A DNA stretch of 64,000 bases, from the NCBI GenBank assembly GCA_020628645.1, contig JAHDES010000032.1, positions 1 to 64,000 on the forward strand, given 5' to 3'. This stretch comes from Saprospiraceae bacterium. Its GTDB lineage: Bacteria > Bacteroidota > Bacteroidia > Chitinophagales > Saprospiraceae. A program made the translations under genes and the position numbers. The notes under the pieces were generated by a model, which had not been told where the DNA came from, did not search any database, and worked only from the letters and a program-made list of their open reading frames with translations. This document shows, one piece after another, positions 31,502 to 42,144 of the stretch (within the stretch, counting starts at the first letter, position 1; each line of letters starts with the position of its first letter).

Positions 31502-32614
31502 TTATTCTTCTTTCATGATCGCCTCTTGATGATTGATAGATTCTTCGTGGATAGCTTTTAAAAATACATTAATAAAGGTTTCGCTTAATCCATGATCAGA
31601 TCCTTTTTGCACTGCTTTTTCTAAAATTTCATTCCAACGAGAAGGTTGTAAAATGGCAATGTTATTTTTCTTTTTATAACTACCAATCGCCTCGGCTAAT
31701 TTCATTCGTTTCCCTAATTGCAACAACAAATCATTATCAATCAAATCAATTTGTTGGCGTAAGCCATCTAAATTTTCCAAAAATAATTCATCATCTGTAG
31801 TTACATTTCGATAAACCAAATTATCCAGTAATGATGAAAATGTTTTAGGGGTTATTTGTTGCTTAGCATCACTCCATGCATTATCTGGATCAATGTGTGT
31901 TTCTGTCATTAAACCCGCAAAATTTAAATCCATAGATCGCTGCGCCACATTATCTAGAATATCTCGACGACCACAAATATGACTGTTATCACAAATAATC
32001 TCCAAATTTGGAAAACGACGCATCAATTCAATTGGAATTTGCCACATCGGCTCATTTCGATATTGAGAATTGCCAGCAGAAGAAAAGCCTCGGTGGATCA
32101 CTGCAATTCGAGAAATTCCTGCTTTATAAATACGCTCAATCGCGCCAATCCATAAGGCTAAATCTGGATTAATTGGGTTTTTTATCATTACAGGAATATC
32201 AATTCCTTCCAATGCATCGGCTACTTCTTGTACAGAAAATGGATTTACAGTCGTCCGCGCTCCTAACCAAACAACATCTACGCCATGCTTGATGGCTTCA
32301 AAAACGTGCTGACGATTGGCAACTTCAGTTGTAACTGGTAATCCGACTTGTTCTTTTACTTTTTTGAGCCATTTTAAACCGATAGACCCCACGCCTTCGA
32401 AAGAATTGGGGCGAGTACGAGGTTTCCAAATTCCAGCGCGGAATAAGTCCACTCTACCATCTTCTTTTAATTGGCGAGCAATTTCGAGGACTTGTTGTTC
32501 GGATTCTGCGCTACAGGGGCCAGCAATCACATAAGGACGATCTTTTTTCTCAAAGATTGGTTTGATATTCATTGTAGATGTATTTGTACTTGATGAATTT
32601 TTAGTTGCTATCAT
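31502..32614 (-). CDS. Bifunctional DAHP synthase / chorismate mutase
   Basis: 370 residues. The N-terminal part (about 15-270) is a DAHP synthase of the KDO8P-synthase-like (type I beta) class, the entry reaction of the shikimate pathway: VIAGPCSAES, FRAGIWKPRTRPNSFEG, GARTTVNPF, HRGFSS and CDNSH. The C-terminal part (about 275-360) is an AroQ chorismate mutase helix bundle (NLDGLRQQIDLIDNDLLLQLGKRM). Chorismate mutase fusion lets prephenate-pathway demand feed back on entry to the pathway. It is the last gene of the pheA operon, 21 nt after tyrA. Confidence 0.93.
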   Translation of the reverse strand: MIATKNSSSTNTSTMNIKPIFEKKDRPYVIAGPCSAESEQQVLEIARQLKEDGRVDLFRAGIWKPRTRPNSFEGVGSIGLKWLKKVKEQVGLPVTTEVANRQHVFEAIKHGVDVVWLGARTTVNPFSVQEVADALEGIDIPVMIKNPINPDLALWIGAIERIYKAGISRIAVIHRGFSSAGNSQYRNEPMWQIPIELMRRFPNLEIICDNSHICGRRDILDNVAQRSMDLNFAGLMTETHIDPDNAWSDAKQQITPKTFSSLLDNLVYRNVTTDDELFLENLDGLRQQIDLIDNDLLLQLGKRMKLAEAIGSYKKKNNIAILQPSRWNEILEKAVQKGSDHGLSETFINVFLKAIHEESINHQEAIMKEE

Positions 32615-32635: not shown

Positions 32636-33475
32636 TTATTTTAAAATTTTACGAATGGTATTCGCTTGTTCTATTAATTCATAAATGGTTTGAAAATCAT
32701 TTTTAATCAATAAACTTCTAAATCTTGCGAGCGAATTAATGTGTTCATCCAATACATCGAGCACATTATCCCGATTTTGACGAAATATAGGAGTCCACAT
32801 ATCAGGTGAACTCTTCGCTAAACGTACGGTTGATCCAAATCCTCCACTCGCTAATTCAAAAATTCGATTTTCATTTTTTTCTTTTTCTAAAACGGTCAAT
32901 GCCAATGCAAATGAACTGATATGCGAAATATGCGATACATAAGCCGTATGAATATCATGCGCATGAGCATCCAAATAAGTAATCGTCATAGGAATGGAAG
33001 CATACAGTAACTTGGCTATATCAATTGCATCAGTATCACTATCTTCAATATCACAAAATACGGTGCATTTATGATCAAATAAATTGGGGATAGCTGCTTC
33101 TGGCCCTGAAAATTCTGTACCTGCCATTGGATGTGTCGCTACATAACGTCCTCGTTTAGGATGTGATTTTACGGTAGCTAATAAAGCTTTTTTTGTCGAT
33201 CCTACATCTAACACCACTTGTTGATCTACTAGATCTAATACTTGAATCAAAACCGATTTCATCGCATCCACTGGTGTAGCAACTACAATAATATCCGAAC
33301 GATGAGCCGCTTCTTCTAAACTTGCTCCTTCATCAATAATTCTTCTCCGCAATGCTTTATCTATGTTTTCTTCGGACGCATCAACACCAATGATGTGCGA
33401 AGCAAAGCCATTTTCTTTGATCGTAATAGCCAAAGAACCACCAATAAGACCTACTCCTATAATTGTTACTACCAT
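32636..33475 (-). CDS. tyrA: Prephenate dehydrogenase
   Basis: Oxidatively decarboxylates prephenate to 4-hydroxyphenylpyruvate, the tyrosine branch. 279 residues. The Rossmann motif GVGLIGGS is at 7-14, VVVATPVDAM follows, and the prephenate-binding THPMAGTEFSGPEAA segment carries the conserved His. No ACT domain is fused, so feedback may rest on the operon leader or on other enzymes. Its start overlaps the end of the aminotransferase gene by 7 bp, indicating translational coupling. Confidence 0.93.
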   Translation of the reverse strand: MVVTIIGVGLIGGSLAITIKENGFASHIIGVDASEENIDKALRRRIIDEGASLEEAAHRSDIIVVATPVDAMKSVLIQVLDLVDQQVVLDVGSTKKALLATVKSHPKRGRYVATHPMAGTEFSGPEAAIPNLFDHKCTVFCDIEDSDTDAIDIAKLLYASIPMTITYLDAHAHDIHTAYVSHISHISSFALALTVLEKEKNENRIFELASGGFGSTVRLAKSSPDMWTPIFRQNRDNVLDVLDEHINSLARFRSLLIKNDFQTIYELIEQANTIRKILK

Positions 33476-34644
33476 ACTTTTACACTTGCGTTTTGTTGAA
33501 TGCGTTGAATCGCTTGTTGCAATACTTCTTCAGGGCTACATAATGAAATGCGAATATATTGATTTCCACGATCTCCGAAAATTCCCCCCGGAGTAATAAA
33601 AACACCTGTTTCTTTTAATAATTGATCTGATAATTGAAAACCAGATGCATAAGAAGACGGAATTTTTGCCCATACAAACATTCCTGAGCAATCACGATTA
33701 AAGGAACAGTTTAATTGCTCTAAAATTTGAAAAGCGATTTGTTGTCTTTTTTTGTAAATAGCGTTTAAATCAGCATACCATTTTTCATCTGCATCTAGTG
33801 CTTTCACTGCTGCCAATTGTAAGGGTTTGAACATCCCAGAATCCATATTACTTTTGAAACGAAGAATGGTTTGAACATAATCTGCTCGTCCTGCTAACAT
33901 TCCTACGCGCCAGCCCGCCATATTTTGGGCTTTACTCAAAGAATTGAGTTCTAACGCCACCTCTTTTGCTCCGTCTACTGCTAAAATACTGATGTAATCC
34001 TCATTTAAGATAAAACTATACGGATTATCATTACACAACAAAATTTGATGCTTCTTGGCAAATTGAACCACTTTTTCAAAGAAAGAACGTGTAACTTTTG
34101 CACCTGTAGGCATGTGTGGATAATTGAGCCACATGATTTTCACTTTCGATAAATCCGTTTGTTCTAACGCTACTAAATCAGGCAACCAAGCCGTCTCTTC
34201 AGATAAATCGTATGTACGGATGCTAGCTCCTGTTAATCGTGTAACAGACTGATAAGTTGGATAACCTGGGTTAGGAATTAAGACTTCATCTCCAGCTTCA
34301 AGAAAGGTCATTGAAATGTGCATAATCCCTTCTTTTGAACCAATTAAAGGTAGAAGTTCATTGGTAGCATTCAATTCAACGCCATACCATTTTTGGTAAA
34401 AACGAGCCATTGCTTCACGTAATTCAAGAATACCTGAATAGGATTGATATTTATGATTTTGAGGAACTAAACTTTCTGTTCTAAGTGTCTCTATCACATC
34501 AGGTGAAGGAGGCAAATCGGGACTTCCAATGCCTAAATTGATGACATCAATTCCTTGCGCACGCATGGCAGCAATTTCCTTTAATTTCACGGAAAAATAA
34601 TATTCTTTTACTTCTCCCAATCGACTAGCTGTGTTTATAATCAT
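33469..34644 (-). CDS. PLP-dependent class I aminotransferase (aromatic operon)
   Basis: 391 residues, fold type I aspartate aminotransferase family. The PLP-lysine is Lys239 (NSLSKAQNMAGWRVG). Other marks are LPLIGSKEGIMH, NPGYPTYQ, the substrate loop NYPHMPTGA and the C-terminal Arg in YIRISLCSPEE. Its place between pheA and tyrA implies the last step to Phe and Tyr (phenylpyruvate and hydroxyphenylpyruvate transamination). This assignment is by context. pheA ends 5 nt upstream and tyrA overlaps by 7 bp. Confidence 0.88.
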   Translation of the reverse strand: MIINTASRLGEVKEYYFSVKLKEIAAMRAQGIDVINLGIGSPDLPPSPDVIETLRTESLVPQNHKYQSYSGILELREAMARFYQKWYGVELNATNELLPLIGSKEGIMHISMTFLEAGDEVLIPNPGYPTYQSVTRLTGASIRTYDLSEETAWLPDLVALEQTDLSKVKIMWLNYPHMPTGAKVTRSFFEKVVQFAKKHQILLCNDNPYSFILNEDYISILAVDGAKEVALELNSLSKAQNMAGWRVGMLAGRADYVQTILRFKSNMDSGMFKPLQLAAVKALDADEKWYADLNAIYKKRQQIAFQILEQLNCSFNRDCSGMFVWAKIPSSYASGFQLSDQLLKETGVFITPGGIFGDRGNQYIRISLCSPEEVLQQAIQRIQQNASVKVW

Positions 34645-34649
34645 AAGTT

Positions 34650-35519
34650 CTAGTGTTCGTAATGATTTCCTTTGGGGTAGATGCCTAAAATTTTTAATTC
34701 GCTGGTTAATGGACGAATCGCTTCAATTCCTTGCGATAAAGTAAAACGCCCATCTATGATAAAATCTATAAAAAAGCGGTACTCCCATGCTTTTCCGACA
34801 ATGGGAGTAGATTGAATCTTCGTTAAATTCATCTGATAGGCAGACATTACCCCTAAAATTTGGTGTAAACTACCTACCTCATGCGCCGTTGAAAAACAAA
34901 GTGAGACTTTATTCCCATTTTCATTTTGTTTAACAGAGTTTCGCTTGGTTAAAACTAAAAAACGCGTATAATTTTGCTTATTCGTCTCGATACTTGGAGC
35001 TACGATTTCTAATTGATACAATTCAGCGGCTAAACTACTTGCGATTGCTCCTTTAGTTCGATCTCGTCGTTCTTGGATCATTTTTGCGCTAAGGGCTGTA
35101 TCTGCATTTTCAATTAATCGAATTTTTGGATAGTTTCGGAAAAAATTCCGCGTTTGAGCAATTGCCATTGGATGCGAATGAACCTCTTCCAAATCTTCAA
35201 TTTGAACTCCAGGCAAAACCATTAAATTTTGTTTGATTCGTAAGTAAACTTCACCGTCTATTTGTAACTTAGAATCATTTAATAAACTATAATTATACAT
35301 CAAACTTCCAGCAAGTGAATTTTCAATCGCCATCAAAGCGGTGTCTACTTTACCAGTTTCAACAGCTTGTACCAAATCATCAAAAGTATGGGCAGGAACG
35401 ATTTCAATTGCTTGATCGCCAAAATATAAATGAGCGGCTACATCATGAAATGCACCTGCATAACCTTGTATGGCAACCTTCAAATGCGATTCTTCTTGCT
35501 GCTGTTCTGAATTTGTCAT
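34650..35519 (-). CDS. pheA: Prephenate dehydratase
   Basis: Converts prephenate to phenylpyruvate. 289 residues. The catalytic domain (about 13-195) contains the TRF motif at 185-187 (KQNYTRFLVL) and the conserved AIENSLAGS. A C-terminal ACT domain (about 205-275) normally binds Phe for feedback inhibition. The usual GAL and ESRP motifs read GSL (216-218) and QSTP (236-239), as I recall for other Bacteroidota; the effect on feedback is unknown. It is the first gene of a four-gene aromatic operon. Its mRNA leader has two tandem attenuators ending 17 nt before the ATG. Confidence 0.95.
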   Translation of the reverse strand: MTNSEQQQEESHLKVAIQGYAGAFHDVAAHLYFGDQAIEIVPAHTFDDLVQAVETGKVDTALMAIENSLAGSLMYNYSLLNDSKLQIDGEVYLRIKQNLMVLPGVQIEDLEEVHSHPMAIAQTRNFFRNYPKIRLIENADTALSAKMIQERRDRTKGAIASSLAAELYQLEIVAPSIETNKQNYTRFLVLTKRNSVKQNENGNKVSLCFSTAHEVGSLHQILGVMSAYQMNLTKIQSTPIVGKAWEYRFFIDFIIDGRFTLSQGIEAIRPLTSELKILGIYPKGNHYEH

Positions 35520-35535
35520 ATTAGTAAATTAGATC

Positions 35536-35567
35536 AAAAAAAAATGCCTCAATTTGCATTGAGGCAT
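35536..35567 (-). terminator. pheA leader attenuator 2 (terminator helix)
   Basis: On the minus strand, AATGCCTCAA pairs with TTGAGGCATT (stem 35544-35552 with 35559-35567) and is followed by nine T (35544-35536). It ends 17 nt before pheA, so forming it would stop transcription of the operon. The first arm can instead pair with TGAGGCATT at 35608-35600, inside the end of leader ORF 2 (antiterminator). A pause-type helix ACTTC/GAAGT lies at 35608-35624. Confidence 0.88.
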
Positions 35568-35592
35568 TTTTTTAGATCATTTTAAAGAATAA

Positions 35593-35673
35593 TCAATACA
35601 ATGCCTCACTTCTGCAAAAGAAGTAAAAATAAAAAGATGCAAAAAAATAAATTGCACTATTTTTGGTTGGCAT
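35593..35673 (-). CDS. pheA leader peptide 2 (Phe-rich)
   Basis: A 26-codon ORF (ATG at 35673-35671, TGA at 35595-35593). It contains the run IYFFASFYFYFFC: six Phe and three Tyr in twelve codons. Its last codons (SEAL) overlap the antiterminator strand TGAGGCATT. A ribosome stalled at the Phe/Tyr codons would leave that strand free to block the terminator; one reaching the stop codon would cover it. This is the arrangement of enterobacterial pheL leaders, but the sequence is not homologous to them. There is no Shine-Dalgarno, as usual in this phylum. Confidence 0.85.
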   Translation of the reverse strand: MPTKNSAIYFFASFYFYFFCRSEALY

Positions 35674-35699
35674 TGGTTAAGATTTAAAAATTAATTTAT

Positions 35700-35726
35700 A
35701 AAAAAAGGAGCTCCAAAGGAACTCCT
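35700..35726 (-). terminator. pheA leader attenuator 1 (terminator helix)
   Basis: AGGAGTTCC pairs with GGAGCTCCT (one G-U; 35718-35726 with 35706-35714) around a TTT loop and is followed by seven T (35706-35700). Its first arm region GTTCCTTT (35722-35715) is exactly complementary to AAAGGAAC (35768-35761), which overlaps the stop codon of leader ORF 1. This gives a competing antiterminator. Confidence 0.8.
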
Positions 35727-35766
35727 AATTTGTTATATCTTGTTTAACACACGATCAGTTGTTCCT

Positions 35767-35832
35767 TTAGTTGTTCTTGCTACAGAAGCTAAAAAAATAA
35801 TAGAAATATGTGTTAGAATAATTGTTCATCAT
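35767..35832 (-). CDS. pheA leader peptide 1 (Tyr/Phe-rich)
   Basis: A 21-codon ORF (ATG at 35832-35830, or the next codon at 35829; TAA at 35769-35767). It contains YSNTYFYYFFSF: four Tyr and four Phe within twelve codons. Its stop codon overlaps strand AAAGGAAC, the antiterminator partner of attenuator 1. It begins about 10 nt after the predicted transcription start. The relative excess of Tyr over leader 2 suggests a Tyr bias, which is inference. Confidence 0.8.
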   Translation of the reverse strand: MMNNYSNTYFYYFFSFCSKNN

Positions 35833-35848
35833 TTTTAAATTGATAGCT

Positions 35849-35879
35849 CAAAGCTAAGGATTTATTTATTGGGATGCAA
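35849..35879 (-). promoter_or_regulatory. Promoter of the pheA leader-operon
   Basis: On the minus strand TTG (35879-35877), a 20-nt spacer and TAGCTTTG (35856-35849) match the Bacteroidota -33/-7 consensus. The predicted start is near 35842, about 10 nt before leader ORF 1, so the transcript would include both attenuators. Confidence 0.65.
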
Positions 35880-35948: not shown

Positions 35949-36035
35949 ATGCCTAACTTAAAAATCGTTCAAGGAGATATTACCAAAATTTAAATAGACA
36001 TTATTGTGAATGCTGCCAATTCGTCTTTATTAGGA
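35949..36035 (+). pseudogene. Macro-domain gene remnant
   Basis: From the ATG at 35949 the frame reads MPNLKIVQGDITKI, TAA (35991-35993), then IDIIVNAANSSLLG. This is the conserved start of an ADP-ribose-binding macro domain (QGDIT..D.IVNAANSSLLGG) with one in-frame stop. Homology ends at about 36035 and the rest of the domain (about 120 residues) is absent. The 3' side runs into the end of the minus-strand epimerase gene. It is a decayed fragment and cannot encode a working protein. Confidence 0.75.
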
Positions 36036-36066
36036 AACTTCTTTCTTTTTAATAGGAAGAGTACCT

Positions 36067-39675: not shown

Positions 39676-39999
39676 ATGAGTACAATAAAAATAACAGTAA
39701 TTGATCGGGAAGATCAAGAACATGAATTAGAGGCTCCTACTGACATGAATATGAATGTCATGGAGGTGTGCAAAGCTTATGAACTACCTGTAGAAGGGAC
39801 TTGTGGAGGAATGGCACTTTGTGCTTCTTGCCATTGTTACGTGTTGACGAATCATGAATTGAGAGAACCTTCGGATGATGAAGAAGATATGCTCGATCAA
39901 GCTTTCTTTGTGGAAGATAATTCTAGACTGGGATGCCAGATAAGAATAGATGAGGAGCTAGCGGGGTTAAAGGTTAAACTAGCTCCTCAGTCGGATTAA
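39676..39999 (+). CDS. 2Fe-2S ferredoxin (adrenodoxin type)
   Basis: 107 residues. The four cluster ligands are Cys43, Cys49, Cys52 and Cys87, in the pattern C-x5-C-x2-C typical of adrenodoxin-like ferredoxins (EGTCGGMALCASCHCYV, then RLGCQIR). A small acidic electron carrier; its partner enzyme is not adjacent. Confidence 0.93.
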   Translation: MSTIKITVIDREDQEHELEAPTDMNMNVMEVCKAYELPVEGTCGGMALCASCHCYVLTNHELREPSDDEEDMLDQAFFVEDNSRLGCQIRIDEELAGLKVKLAPQSD

Positions 40000-40140: not shown

Positions 40141-40172
40141 AAAAAAACTCACCATTTTTGGTGAGTTGCTTT
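40141..40172 (-). terminator. lepA terminator, probably bidirectional
   Basis: AACTCACC (40146-40153) pairs with GGTGAGTT (40160-40167), with A7 before and TTTTTA after. On the minus strand it ends in seven T, about 35 nt beyond the lepA stop codon; it can also end ferredoxin transcripts. Confidence 0.75.
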
Positions 40173-40202: not shown

Positions 40203-41993
40203 TTAATCTAACTTTAATACTTCAAGGAAGGCTTTTTGTGGCACTTCTACATTTCCGATCTGACGCATCTTCTTCTTTCCTTTCTTTTGCTTTTCTAATA
40301 ACTTACGTTTACGCGTAATATCACCACCGTAACATTTAGCGGTTACATCTTTACGTAAAGCAGAAATTGTTTCTCTTGCAATAATTTTCATTCCAATAGA
40401 AGCCTGAATCGCAATCATAAATTGCTGACGCGGTAATAGTTCTTTTAGTTTCTTACAAATCTTACGCCCAAAAGCTTGCGCTTTATCTCGATGCACTAAG
40501 GCAGATAAAGCATCCACAGGATCACCATTCAAGCGAATATCCATTTTCACTAAATCCGACTGACGATAATCTTTTGGTGAATAATCAAATGATGCATAAC
40601 CCCTAGAAATGGATTTTAAGCGATCATAAAAATCAAAAACAATCTCCGCCAAAGGTAAATCAAAACTTAATTCTACTCGTTCTGTAGTCAAATAAGTTTG
40701 CTTGGTAAGCATCCCTCGTTTTTCCATACACAAGGTCATGATCGTACCAATGTATTCAGGCTTAGTGATAATTTGAGCTACGATAAAAGGCTCTTCTACA
40801 AAATCAAGCTTAGTCATATCAGGAAGATCGGTAGGTGTATTGACCACCATACGATTTCCTTTTTTATCTTGTGCGTAATACGATACGTTAGGAATGGTCG
40901 TAATCACTTCTTGTTCAAATTCTCGTGATAAACGTTCTTGAATAATTTCCAAATGTAACATTCCTAAGAAACCACAACGAAACCCAAATCCAAGTGCTAC
41001 AGATGTCTCTGGTTCAAACACCAAAGAAGCATCATTCAATTGAAGTTTTTCTAAACTATCTCGTAAATCTTCAAAATCGTCATTGTCTATCGGAAAAATA
41101 CCCGCAAATACCATTGGTTTTACATCCTCAAAACCTTTAATGGCTTCTTCACAAGGGTTTTCGATGGTAGTAATCGTATCCCCTACTTTAATTTCTTTTG
41201 AAACCTTTATTCCTGTAATGATATAGCCCACATTTCCAGCACCCAATTCCTTTTGCGGAACTTGATTGAGTTGTAATATTCCAATCTCATCCGCAGAATA
41301 TTCTTTACCTGTATTGACAAAACGTACTTTGTCGCCTTTTTTCATTACTCCATTAATGATTCTAAAATAAGCGATGACGCCTCGATAAGAATTAAATACA
41401 GAATCAAAAATCAAGGCTTGTAATGGCCCATCAGGATTACCTTTTGGTGAAGGAATACGATCAACAATAGCGGTCATAATATCCTGTACACCTATTCCTG
41501 TTTTTCCACTCGCCAAAATGATTTCATCTACATCACAACCAATCAAGTCAATAATTTGATCAGAAACTTCCTCAATCATCGCACTCTCCATATCCACTTT
41601 GTTCAAGACTGGAATAATTTCCAAATCATGTTCAATAGCCAAATATAGATTAGAAATGGTTTGTGCCTGAATTCCTTGAGAAGCATCAACCAAAAGTAAA
41701 GCACCTTCACAAGCTGCAATGGAACGAGATACTTCGTAGGAAAAATCAACATGACCAGGTGTGTCAATGAGGTTGAAGGTATATTTCTCTCCATCTGTAT
41801 GATTATAATACATTTGGATGGCATGACTTTTAATGGTAATTCCGCGTTCGCGTTCAATATCCATATCGTCCAATGCTTGATTTTGCATATCTCGTTCAGA
41901 GATAGTTTTGGTAAACTCAAGCAATCGATCCGAAAGTGTACTCTTTCCATGATCGATATGGGCAATAACACAAAAATTTCTCAAATTCTTCAT
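40203..41993 (-). CDS. lepA: Elongation factor 4 (LepA)
   Basis: Ribosome-bound translational GTPase. About 596 residues from the ATG at 41993 ([19 protein letters not shown]). A TTG three codons further up is a weaker start. G motifs: AHIDHGKST (G1), DTPGHVD (G3) and NKVD (G4). Domains II, III and V and the LepA-specific C-terminal domain ([19 protein letters not shown]) are complete. Confidence 0.97.
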
Positions 41994-42144
41994 ATACCGC
42001 AAATATACGTTTTTTTAAAACAGGATGGTTCAGTCTTTTCTTAGTTTAATGTCAAATTTTAGGCTGCAAATGTAAGATGTTTCTAAAGAAGAAAACTACT
42101 TTTCATCTTTTTTGTACTTTAGCCATAAGTAAAACCGAATTAAT

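Follow-up and report, generated by a model that had tools for sequence, protein, structure and literature searches.

Two putative Phe/Tyr leader-peptide attenuators in series ahead of a pheA operon in Saprospiraceae

In the window (the whole stretch of DNA that was analysed, 64,000 nt of Saprospiraceae bacterium contig JAHDES010000032.1), the pheA operon is preceded by two leader ORFs rich in Phe and Tyr codons, each followed by its own terminator, with a promoter motif ahead of the first leader only. The same tandem layout recurs in relatives. With a probability of roughly three in four, the two modules are ribosome-mediated transcription attenuators acting in series, in which one and the same sensor, answering to shortage of Phe or of Tyr, is repeated and mainly cuts leak.

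Anatomy of the leader region and operon

The sequence on the minus strand reads in the order promoter, leader ORF 1, terminator 1, leader ORF 2, terminator 2 and pheA operon (Table 1). A first-pass annotation of this DNA had described two full attenuators placed serially behind a single promoter, ahead of an operon for both Phe and Tyr; this description held, and the tandem-leader observation at the window locus is real. The Phe and Tyr codon counts that it gave for both leaders were also correct. The run in leader 2 comprises 6 Phe and 3 Tyr, the fourth Tyr being terminal and outside the run. The promoter had been placed about 10 nt before leader 1; the motif ends 16 nt from the ATG, and the distance becomes ~10 nt if the start lies a few bases later. 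We take the motif TTG-N18-22-TAnnTTTG to be the housekeeping promoter of Bacteroidota. The window promoter is absent from the consensus scan because that scan seeks sigma-70 hexamers. Terminator 2 was called on the minus strand by a purpose-made scanner, with nine T after the G+C core; in the consensus scan, mutual pairing of its A and U runs caused the hairpin to be reported on the plus strand only. A weak hairpin can be computed at the end of each window leader (-7.2 and -7.7 kcal/mol), and these two hairpins are possible protector candidates.

Table 1. Features of the leader region and operon in the window
Feature	Position	Strand	Details
Bacteroidota-type promoter	35849..35879	-	TTG-N20-TAGCTTTG, from sequence; TTG 35879-35877, N20, TAGCTTTG 35856-35849
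Leader ORF 1	35767..35832	-	21 aa, MMNNYSNTYFYYFFSFCSKNN; 4 Tyr + 4 Phe
Predicted antiterminator segment, module 1	35753..35769	-	TAAAGGAACAACTGATC; begins at leader stop codon; computed duplex with 5' arm of terminator 1, -14.3 kcal/mol
Intrinsic terminator 1	35700..35726	-	stem 35726-35706, U run 35705-35700 (six T); -12.8 kcal/mol
Leader ORF 2	35593..35673	-	26 aa, MPTKNSAIYFFASFYFYFFCRSEALY; 6 Phe + 4 Tyr in total
Predicted antiterminator segment, module 2	35599..35618	-	TTTGCAGAAGTGAGGCATTG; within leader 2 end; computed duplex with 5' arm of terminator 2, -16.9 kcal/mol
Intrinsic terminator 2 + U run	35536..35573	-	directly 5' of pheA; -18.4 kcal/mol
pheA, prephenate dehydratase	34650..35519	-	ATG at 35519; Pfam PDT PF00800, 1.2e-54
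Class I/II aminotransferase	33469..34644	-	Pfam PF00155, 4.5e-61
tyrA, prephenate dehydrogenase	32636..33475	-	NCBIfam NF006307 above cut-off, 360 bits
DAHP synthase/chorismate mutase fusion, final operon gene	31502..32614	-	Pfam PF00793 + PF01817

Pfam backed all four operon genes. Against NCBIfam, pheA fell under the equivalog cut-offs, and tyrA was the only one of the four above its cut-off. The operon products (pheA, tyrA and DAHP synthase/chorismate mutase) fit the amino acids that the leaders would sense, as expected of an attenuator. Where the downstream DNA sufficed, 53 of 56 leader-bearing loci had an identical four-gene order, including 5/5 tandem and 48/51 single loci; operon content therefore does not account for the doubling.

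Two further features of the window were recorded. Upstream of the pheA promoter, at 35949-36041 on the plus strand, lies an in-frame remnant, MPNLKIVQGDITKI*IDIIVNAANSSLLGNF, which in our judgement resembles the 5' end of a macro-domain gene interrupted by a stop codon; a Pfam search with its 31 residues gave no match. A symmetric hairpin at 40146-40167 carries a terminator score on both strands and lies between two converging genes, at 39676-39999 (plus strand) and 40203-42002 (minus strand), presumably a ferredoxin-like gene and lepA, respectively. It is probably a shared bidirectional terminator.

Recurrence of the modules in Bacteroidota

Relatives of pheA were gathered by PheA similarity from the window's genus, family, order and class and from contigs of named genomes, among which the best matches were mostly Saprospiraceae; from two of the within-lineage searches, matches without a ready locus were only partly fetched. 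The 550 nt upstream of pheA were scanned for modules, defined as an ORF with at least 6 Phe/Tyr per 12 residues, then a terminator. Removal of 5 loci with <300 nt upstream (L029, L033, L090, L123 and L213) and 15 duplicates from 261 loci left 241 distinct upstream regions, among which some genomes may count twice where regions differ slightly. At least one module was present in 201/241 regions, the detector scoring two modules in 53, one in 148 and none in 40. The detector is strict: L022, L037, L039, L040, L042 and L173 were scored as single yet hold a second leader-like ORF, with its terminator detected or not. L020 is probably overcalled as tandem, its second leader being without Tyr. No third module was found farther up (-1150 to -450) in 144 regions.

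Dinucleotide shuffles, five per region, gave a single module in 1/1205 cases and two modules never. Reverse complements gave a single module in 1/241 and background 550-nt windows in longer loci in 6/2077, again never two. These three controls rule out that the Phe/Tyr codons arise by chance from U-rich DNA. The leader frame held 7.9 Phe/Tyr per 12 residues vs. 3.6 in the better alternative frame, which agrees with the controls but is a biased comparison because the modules were selected by leader frame. The link between codon ending and GC was weak (Spearman 0.18), and no weight is placed on either observation. The survey counts, set against the shuffles, indicate that single Phe/Tyr leaders ahead of pheA are widespread among the sampled Bacteroidota and that the tandem is a recurrent variant.

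The window's family code, f1, comprised 47 tandem and 58 single regions and 13 without a module; it was taken as Saprospiraceae in the wide sense because f1 regions match named ones exactly (Portibacter and a Lewinellaceae genome included). Loci named as Saprospiraceae were tandem in 4 cases and single in 6, and all 28 Flavobacteriaceae-labelled regions had a single module. The initial set also held two tandem loci, L052 and L204, assigned to Hymenobacteraceae; this family was taken for code f69 on the strength of the PheA tree, where L204 and the Hymenobacter persicinus locus L052 form a pair. On account of these two loci, Hymenobacteraceae were then searched. Loci were obtained for 30 of 47 matches (29 new, 28 of them non-duplicate), and 10 of the 28 new regions were tandem. 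A wider phylum sample, with loci for 30 matches (20 new, 14 non-duplicate), gave 0/14. The 42 added regions thus brought 10 tandem cases, all from Hymenobacteraceae. The first-pass annotation had proposed a search of Bacteroidota genomes for doubled aromatic-leader modules before pheA, and the tandem does recur: the combined 283 regions comprised 63 tandem, 179 single and 41 without a module, and the tandem state occurred in two Bacteroidota families.

Within the window's genus, the two other genomes among the matches returned had one module and none, respectively; the tandem state is not conserved in the genus. In a phylogeny of 149 PheA proteins, the tandem label was clustered: it needs at least 14 changes, and shuffled labels need 30.6 on average. 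Several gains or losses are nevertheless implied, at least 4 changes being forced by well supported branches; the figure of 14 is inflated because the strict detector misses some second modules.

The motif TTG-N18-22-TAnnTTTG was found within 80 nt ahead of leader 1 in 43/52 tandem loci (0.3 expected from shuffles) and ahead of the leader in 63/148 single loci (1.2 expected). Ahead of leader 2 it was found in 0/53 tandem loci. Because the motif precedes leader 1 and never leader 2, both terminators act in series, which bears out the earlier proposal that one transcript passes through both attenuators. The same count of 0/53 speaks against an additional promoter between the modules, which the first-pass annotation had itself named as an observation that would speak against its reading. 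Among 29 Hymenobacteraceae loci, the exact motif was found in one single-module locus and in 0/10 tandem loci (550 nt before pheA); the promoter argument therefore rests on the Saprospiraceae group.

Leaders ahead of other amino-acid genes were compared. A single His module was present in 12/30 hisG loci and none in 18/30, with no tandem. At trpE, 14/30 loci had a single Trp module and 15/30 had none; one was scored as having two, the first apparently a false call. Because the His and Trp detectors used other thresholds than the Phe/Tyr detector, these counts could overlook weaker second modules. The genome to which the window belongs carries a single His module (L274) and a single Trp module (L301). 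The idea that these genomes double their leader modules in general was thus rejected, with no tandem at hisG and hardly any at trpE. No leucine leader module was found before leuA in 30 loci, a weak test because leuA is possibly operon-internal.

Clear single leader + terminator modules occur among the same-family hisG and trpE loci (L262-L321), such as the His-rich leader MQHLHHHHHHHAVSGHWPKGNG (L287) and the Trp-rich leader MKLINTYNWWWNFTDLSSK (L292). By eye, leaders in L004, L008, L113 and other tandem pheA loci often end in Tyr-Gly-X-Pro-stop. The Tyr-Gly-X-Pro codons can fold a small hairpin over the stop codon, and this ending may reflect RNA pairing rather than peptide function.

Predicted switching and the probable role of the second module

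For every module, we searched the sequence between leader start and terminator for the segment that pairs best with the terminator's 5' arm. This predicted antiterminator segment overlapped the position of a stop-codon ribosome in 53/53 first, 49/53 second and 142/148 single modules. The module's own terminator arm paired better than the arms of other loci in 49/53 first, 49/53 second and 142/148 single modules (p 6e-9 to 6e-25). In the window, both modules have by calculation a competing antiterminator that is masked by the stop-codon ribosome.

A stall scan was then applied in which RNA under and behind the ribosome is hidden and the output is the expected number of antiterminator pairs. Window leader 1 gave 7.0 pairs at every Phe/Tyr stall vs. 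0.1 at the stop. Window leader 2 gave about 8 to 10 pairs at Phe/Tyr stalls vs. 0.1 at the stop, except at its last Tyr (0.2 pairs). From these calculations, switching is predicted for both modules. Across loci, the mean was ~8 pairs at a Phe/Tyr stall vs. ~2 with the ribosome at the stop. For first, second and single modules, respectively, the means were 7.2, 6.7 and 5.5 pairs when the stall was at another codon and 5.1, 7.6 and 6.0 pairs when no ribosome was present. A strict definition of switching (at least 4 pairs at a Phe/Tyr stall and fewer than 2 at the stop) applied to 26/53 first, 29/53 second and 92/148 single modules (147/254 in all). The stall model thus shows little position-specific preference for Phe/Tyr; because pair counts are similar at other codons, specificity in the model stems from codon frequency and not from fine position.

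In the proposed mechanism, a ribosome finishing the Phe/Tyr-rich leader would sit at the stop codon and mask the antiterminator segment, the terminator hairpin would form, and transcription would end. If Phe-tRNA or Tyr-tRNA is scarce, the ribosome would stall in the run and leave the antiterminator segment exposed; pairing of this segment with the 5' arm of the terminator would allow polymerase to read through. Transcription would reach pheA-aminotransferase-tyrA-DAHP synthase only after passing both terminators, and scarcity of Phe or of Tyr would relieve both. With like checkpoints in series, read-through values would multiply. In a toy model with independent terminators, fold induction was squared and the Hill number rose from 1.0 to 1.1-1.2. 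Doubling is therefore likely to give lower leak, a wider induction range and a response that is only slightly steeper; its physiological purpose we infer only.

The first-pass annotation had suggested an AND/OR gate for two amino acids, based on the differing Phe:Tyr ratios of the two window leaders. Phe and Tyr codons were both present in 125/126 tandem leaders, the exception being the probably false call L020, and in 179/179 single leaders. Across the 63 tandem loci, the Phe share was higher in leader 2 than in leader 1 in 29 and lower in 27 (p = 0.93). Since both codons occur in nearly every tandem leader and the ratios do not differ overall, an AND gate for the two amino acids was rejected as a general rule, with Hymenobacteraceae a possible exception. 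The part of the proposal that stands is joint passage of the two terminators; one result that leans its way is the higher Phe share of leader 2 in Hymenobacteraceae. In the stall model, antitermination is favoured in both leaders of 51/53 loci by one or more Phe stalls and one or more Tyr stalls, and stalls at other early codons often favour it too. Because both stall types act in both leaders, either shortage should relieve both terminators. In this model the logic should be OR for the amino acids and AND solely for the two terminators.

A graded version of the two-amino-acid proposal is that leader 1 is weighted toward Tyr and leader 2 toward Phe, and that full expression, which needs both terminators relieved, reports the joint supply. 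The window counts (4:4 vs. 6:4 Phe:Tyr) agree with such a sensor. So does Hymenobacteraceae, where leader 2 has, as in the window, a higher Phe share than leader 1 in 10 of 12 loci and a lower one in 1 (p = 0.0098, from a test that treats these closely related loci as independent). Doubling at a two-amino-acid operon, with the sampled his and trp loci not convincingly doubled, also agrees with it. However, the 51 loci of the Saprospiraceae group show no such difference (leader 2 Phe share higher in 19 and lower in 26, p = 0.16), nor does the full tandem set; both codons are nearly always present, and stalls at either are equivalent in both leaders in the model. We consider this sensor improbable. 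An origin of the extra module as a by-product of duplication or rapid leader turnover, with little use of its own, seems just as doubtful. The patchy spread of the tandem state, including its absence from both other returned genomes of the genus, the many label changes on the PheA tree and the slightly greater similarity of leaders 1 and 2 within a locus than between loci (p = 0.015) are consistent with a by-product. However, most tandem loci, though much diverged, retain a leader, a terminator and a fitting antiterminator in both modules, and two families share the arrangement.

A trans-acting leader peptide has been reported for trpL of Sinorhizobium (PMC7298713), which lends some plausibility to a regulatory RNA or peptide freed at terminator 1 as the product of module 1, with module 2 alone controlling the operon. 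With the promoter motif before leader 1 only, however, module 1 gates everything downstream, and we regard this alternative as very improbable. The tandem regions and their single-module relatives form a natural comparison set. They raise the questions of whether a second ribosome-based checkpoint tightens repression and why the leaders are doubled ahead of the Phe/Tyr genes but not ahead of the his and trp genes. The tandem loci would also be well suited to studying how tightly translation is coupled to transcription in Bacteroidota.

Relation to known systems

The trp, his and pheA leaders of Escherichia coli are the classical leader-peptide attenuators. The window region resembles them in having a leader ORF rich in codons for the product, an antiterminator competing with an intrinsic terminator, and a position directly before a biosynthetic operon. 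It differs from them in its two serial copies, the mixture of Phe and Tyr in each leader and the Bacteroidota promoter. A 2010 paper by Lopatovskaya and colleagues deals with attenuation across bacteria and may include Bacteroidota leaders. At gathering thresholds, Rfam gave no match anywhere in the window. Phe_leader (RF01859) gave one match per module, at 24.2 and 23.4 bits, under its gathering score of 55 bits; the window modules are predicted to work like Phe_leader, yet are not filed as RF01859 members. For T-boxes there was no Rfam match in the window at the gathering threshold and none among 31 weak matches. Among the matches listed, no open paper was found to describe two like leader-peptide attenuators in series, and the same literature agrees with the earlier statement that no described tandem leader pair is known for an aromatic operon in this phylum.

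The nearest system within the phylum is that of Flavobacterium psychrophilum, whose transcriptome revealed a structured 5' element before pheA that is conserved in other Flavobacteriaceae genera, and strong clues for leader-peptide attenuation ahead of amino-acid operons (PMC9723704). The likeness to the present region lies in the phylum and in a structured 5' element before pheA; the section of that report on 5' cis-regulatory RNAs mentions no tandem.

Serial arrangements are described elsewhere. According to the account in PMC3641672, the leader RNA of Salmonella mgtCBR carries two leader ORFs, each tied to transcription into the operon, as here. mgtM and mgtP respond to different signals (ATP and proline), and their control is unlike that by intrinsic terminators; the window region, in contrast, has two like sensors and intrinsic terminators. 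Codon content gives no sign of a differing signal per leader here, both leaders carrying Phe and Tyr. The rimP leader of some Gammaproteobacteria is similar in its two serial premature terminators, one with a potential antiterminator, and differs in that the account given in PMC2965389 describes no leader peptide. Tandem homologous riboswitches (PMC9481103) and tandem T-boxes (PMC12452182) share with the window region, as far as those accounts go, the serial placement of like sensors with their own decision points, and a steeper, more digital response is described for the tandem riboswitches (PMC9481103). In both of those classes the RNA itself binds the ligand or tRNA, whereas in the pheA tandem the sensor would be the translating ribosome.
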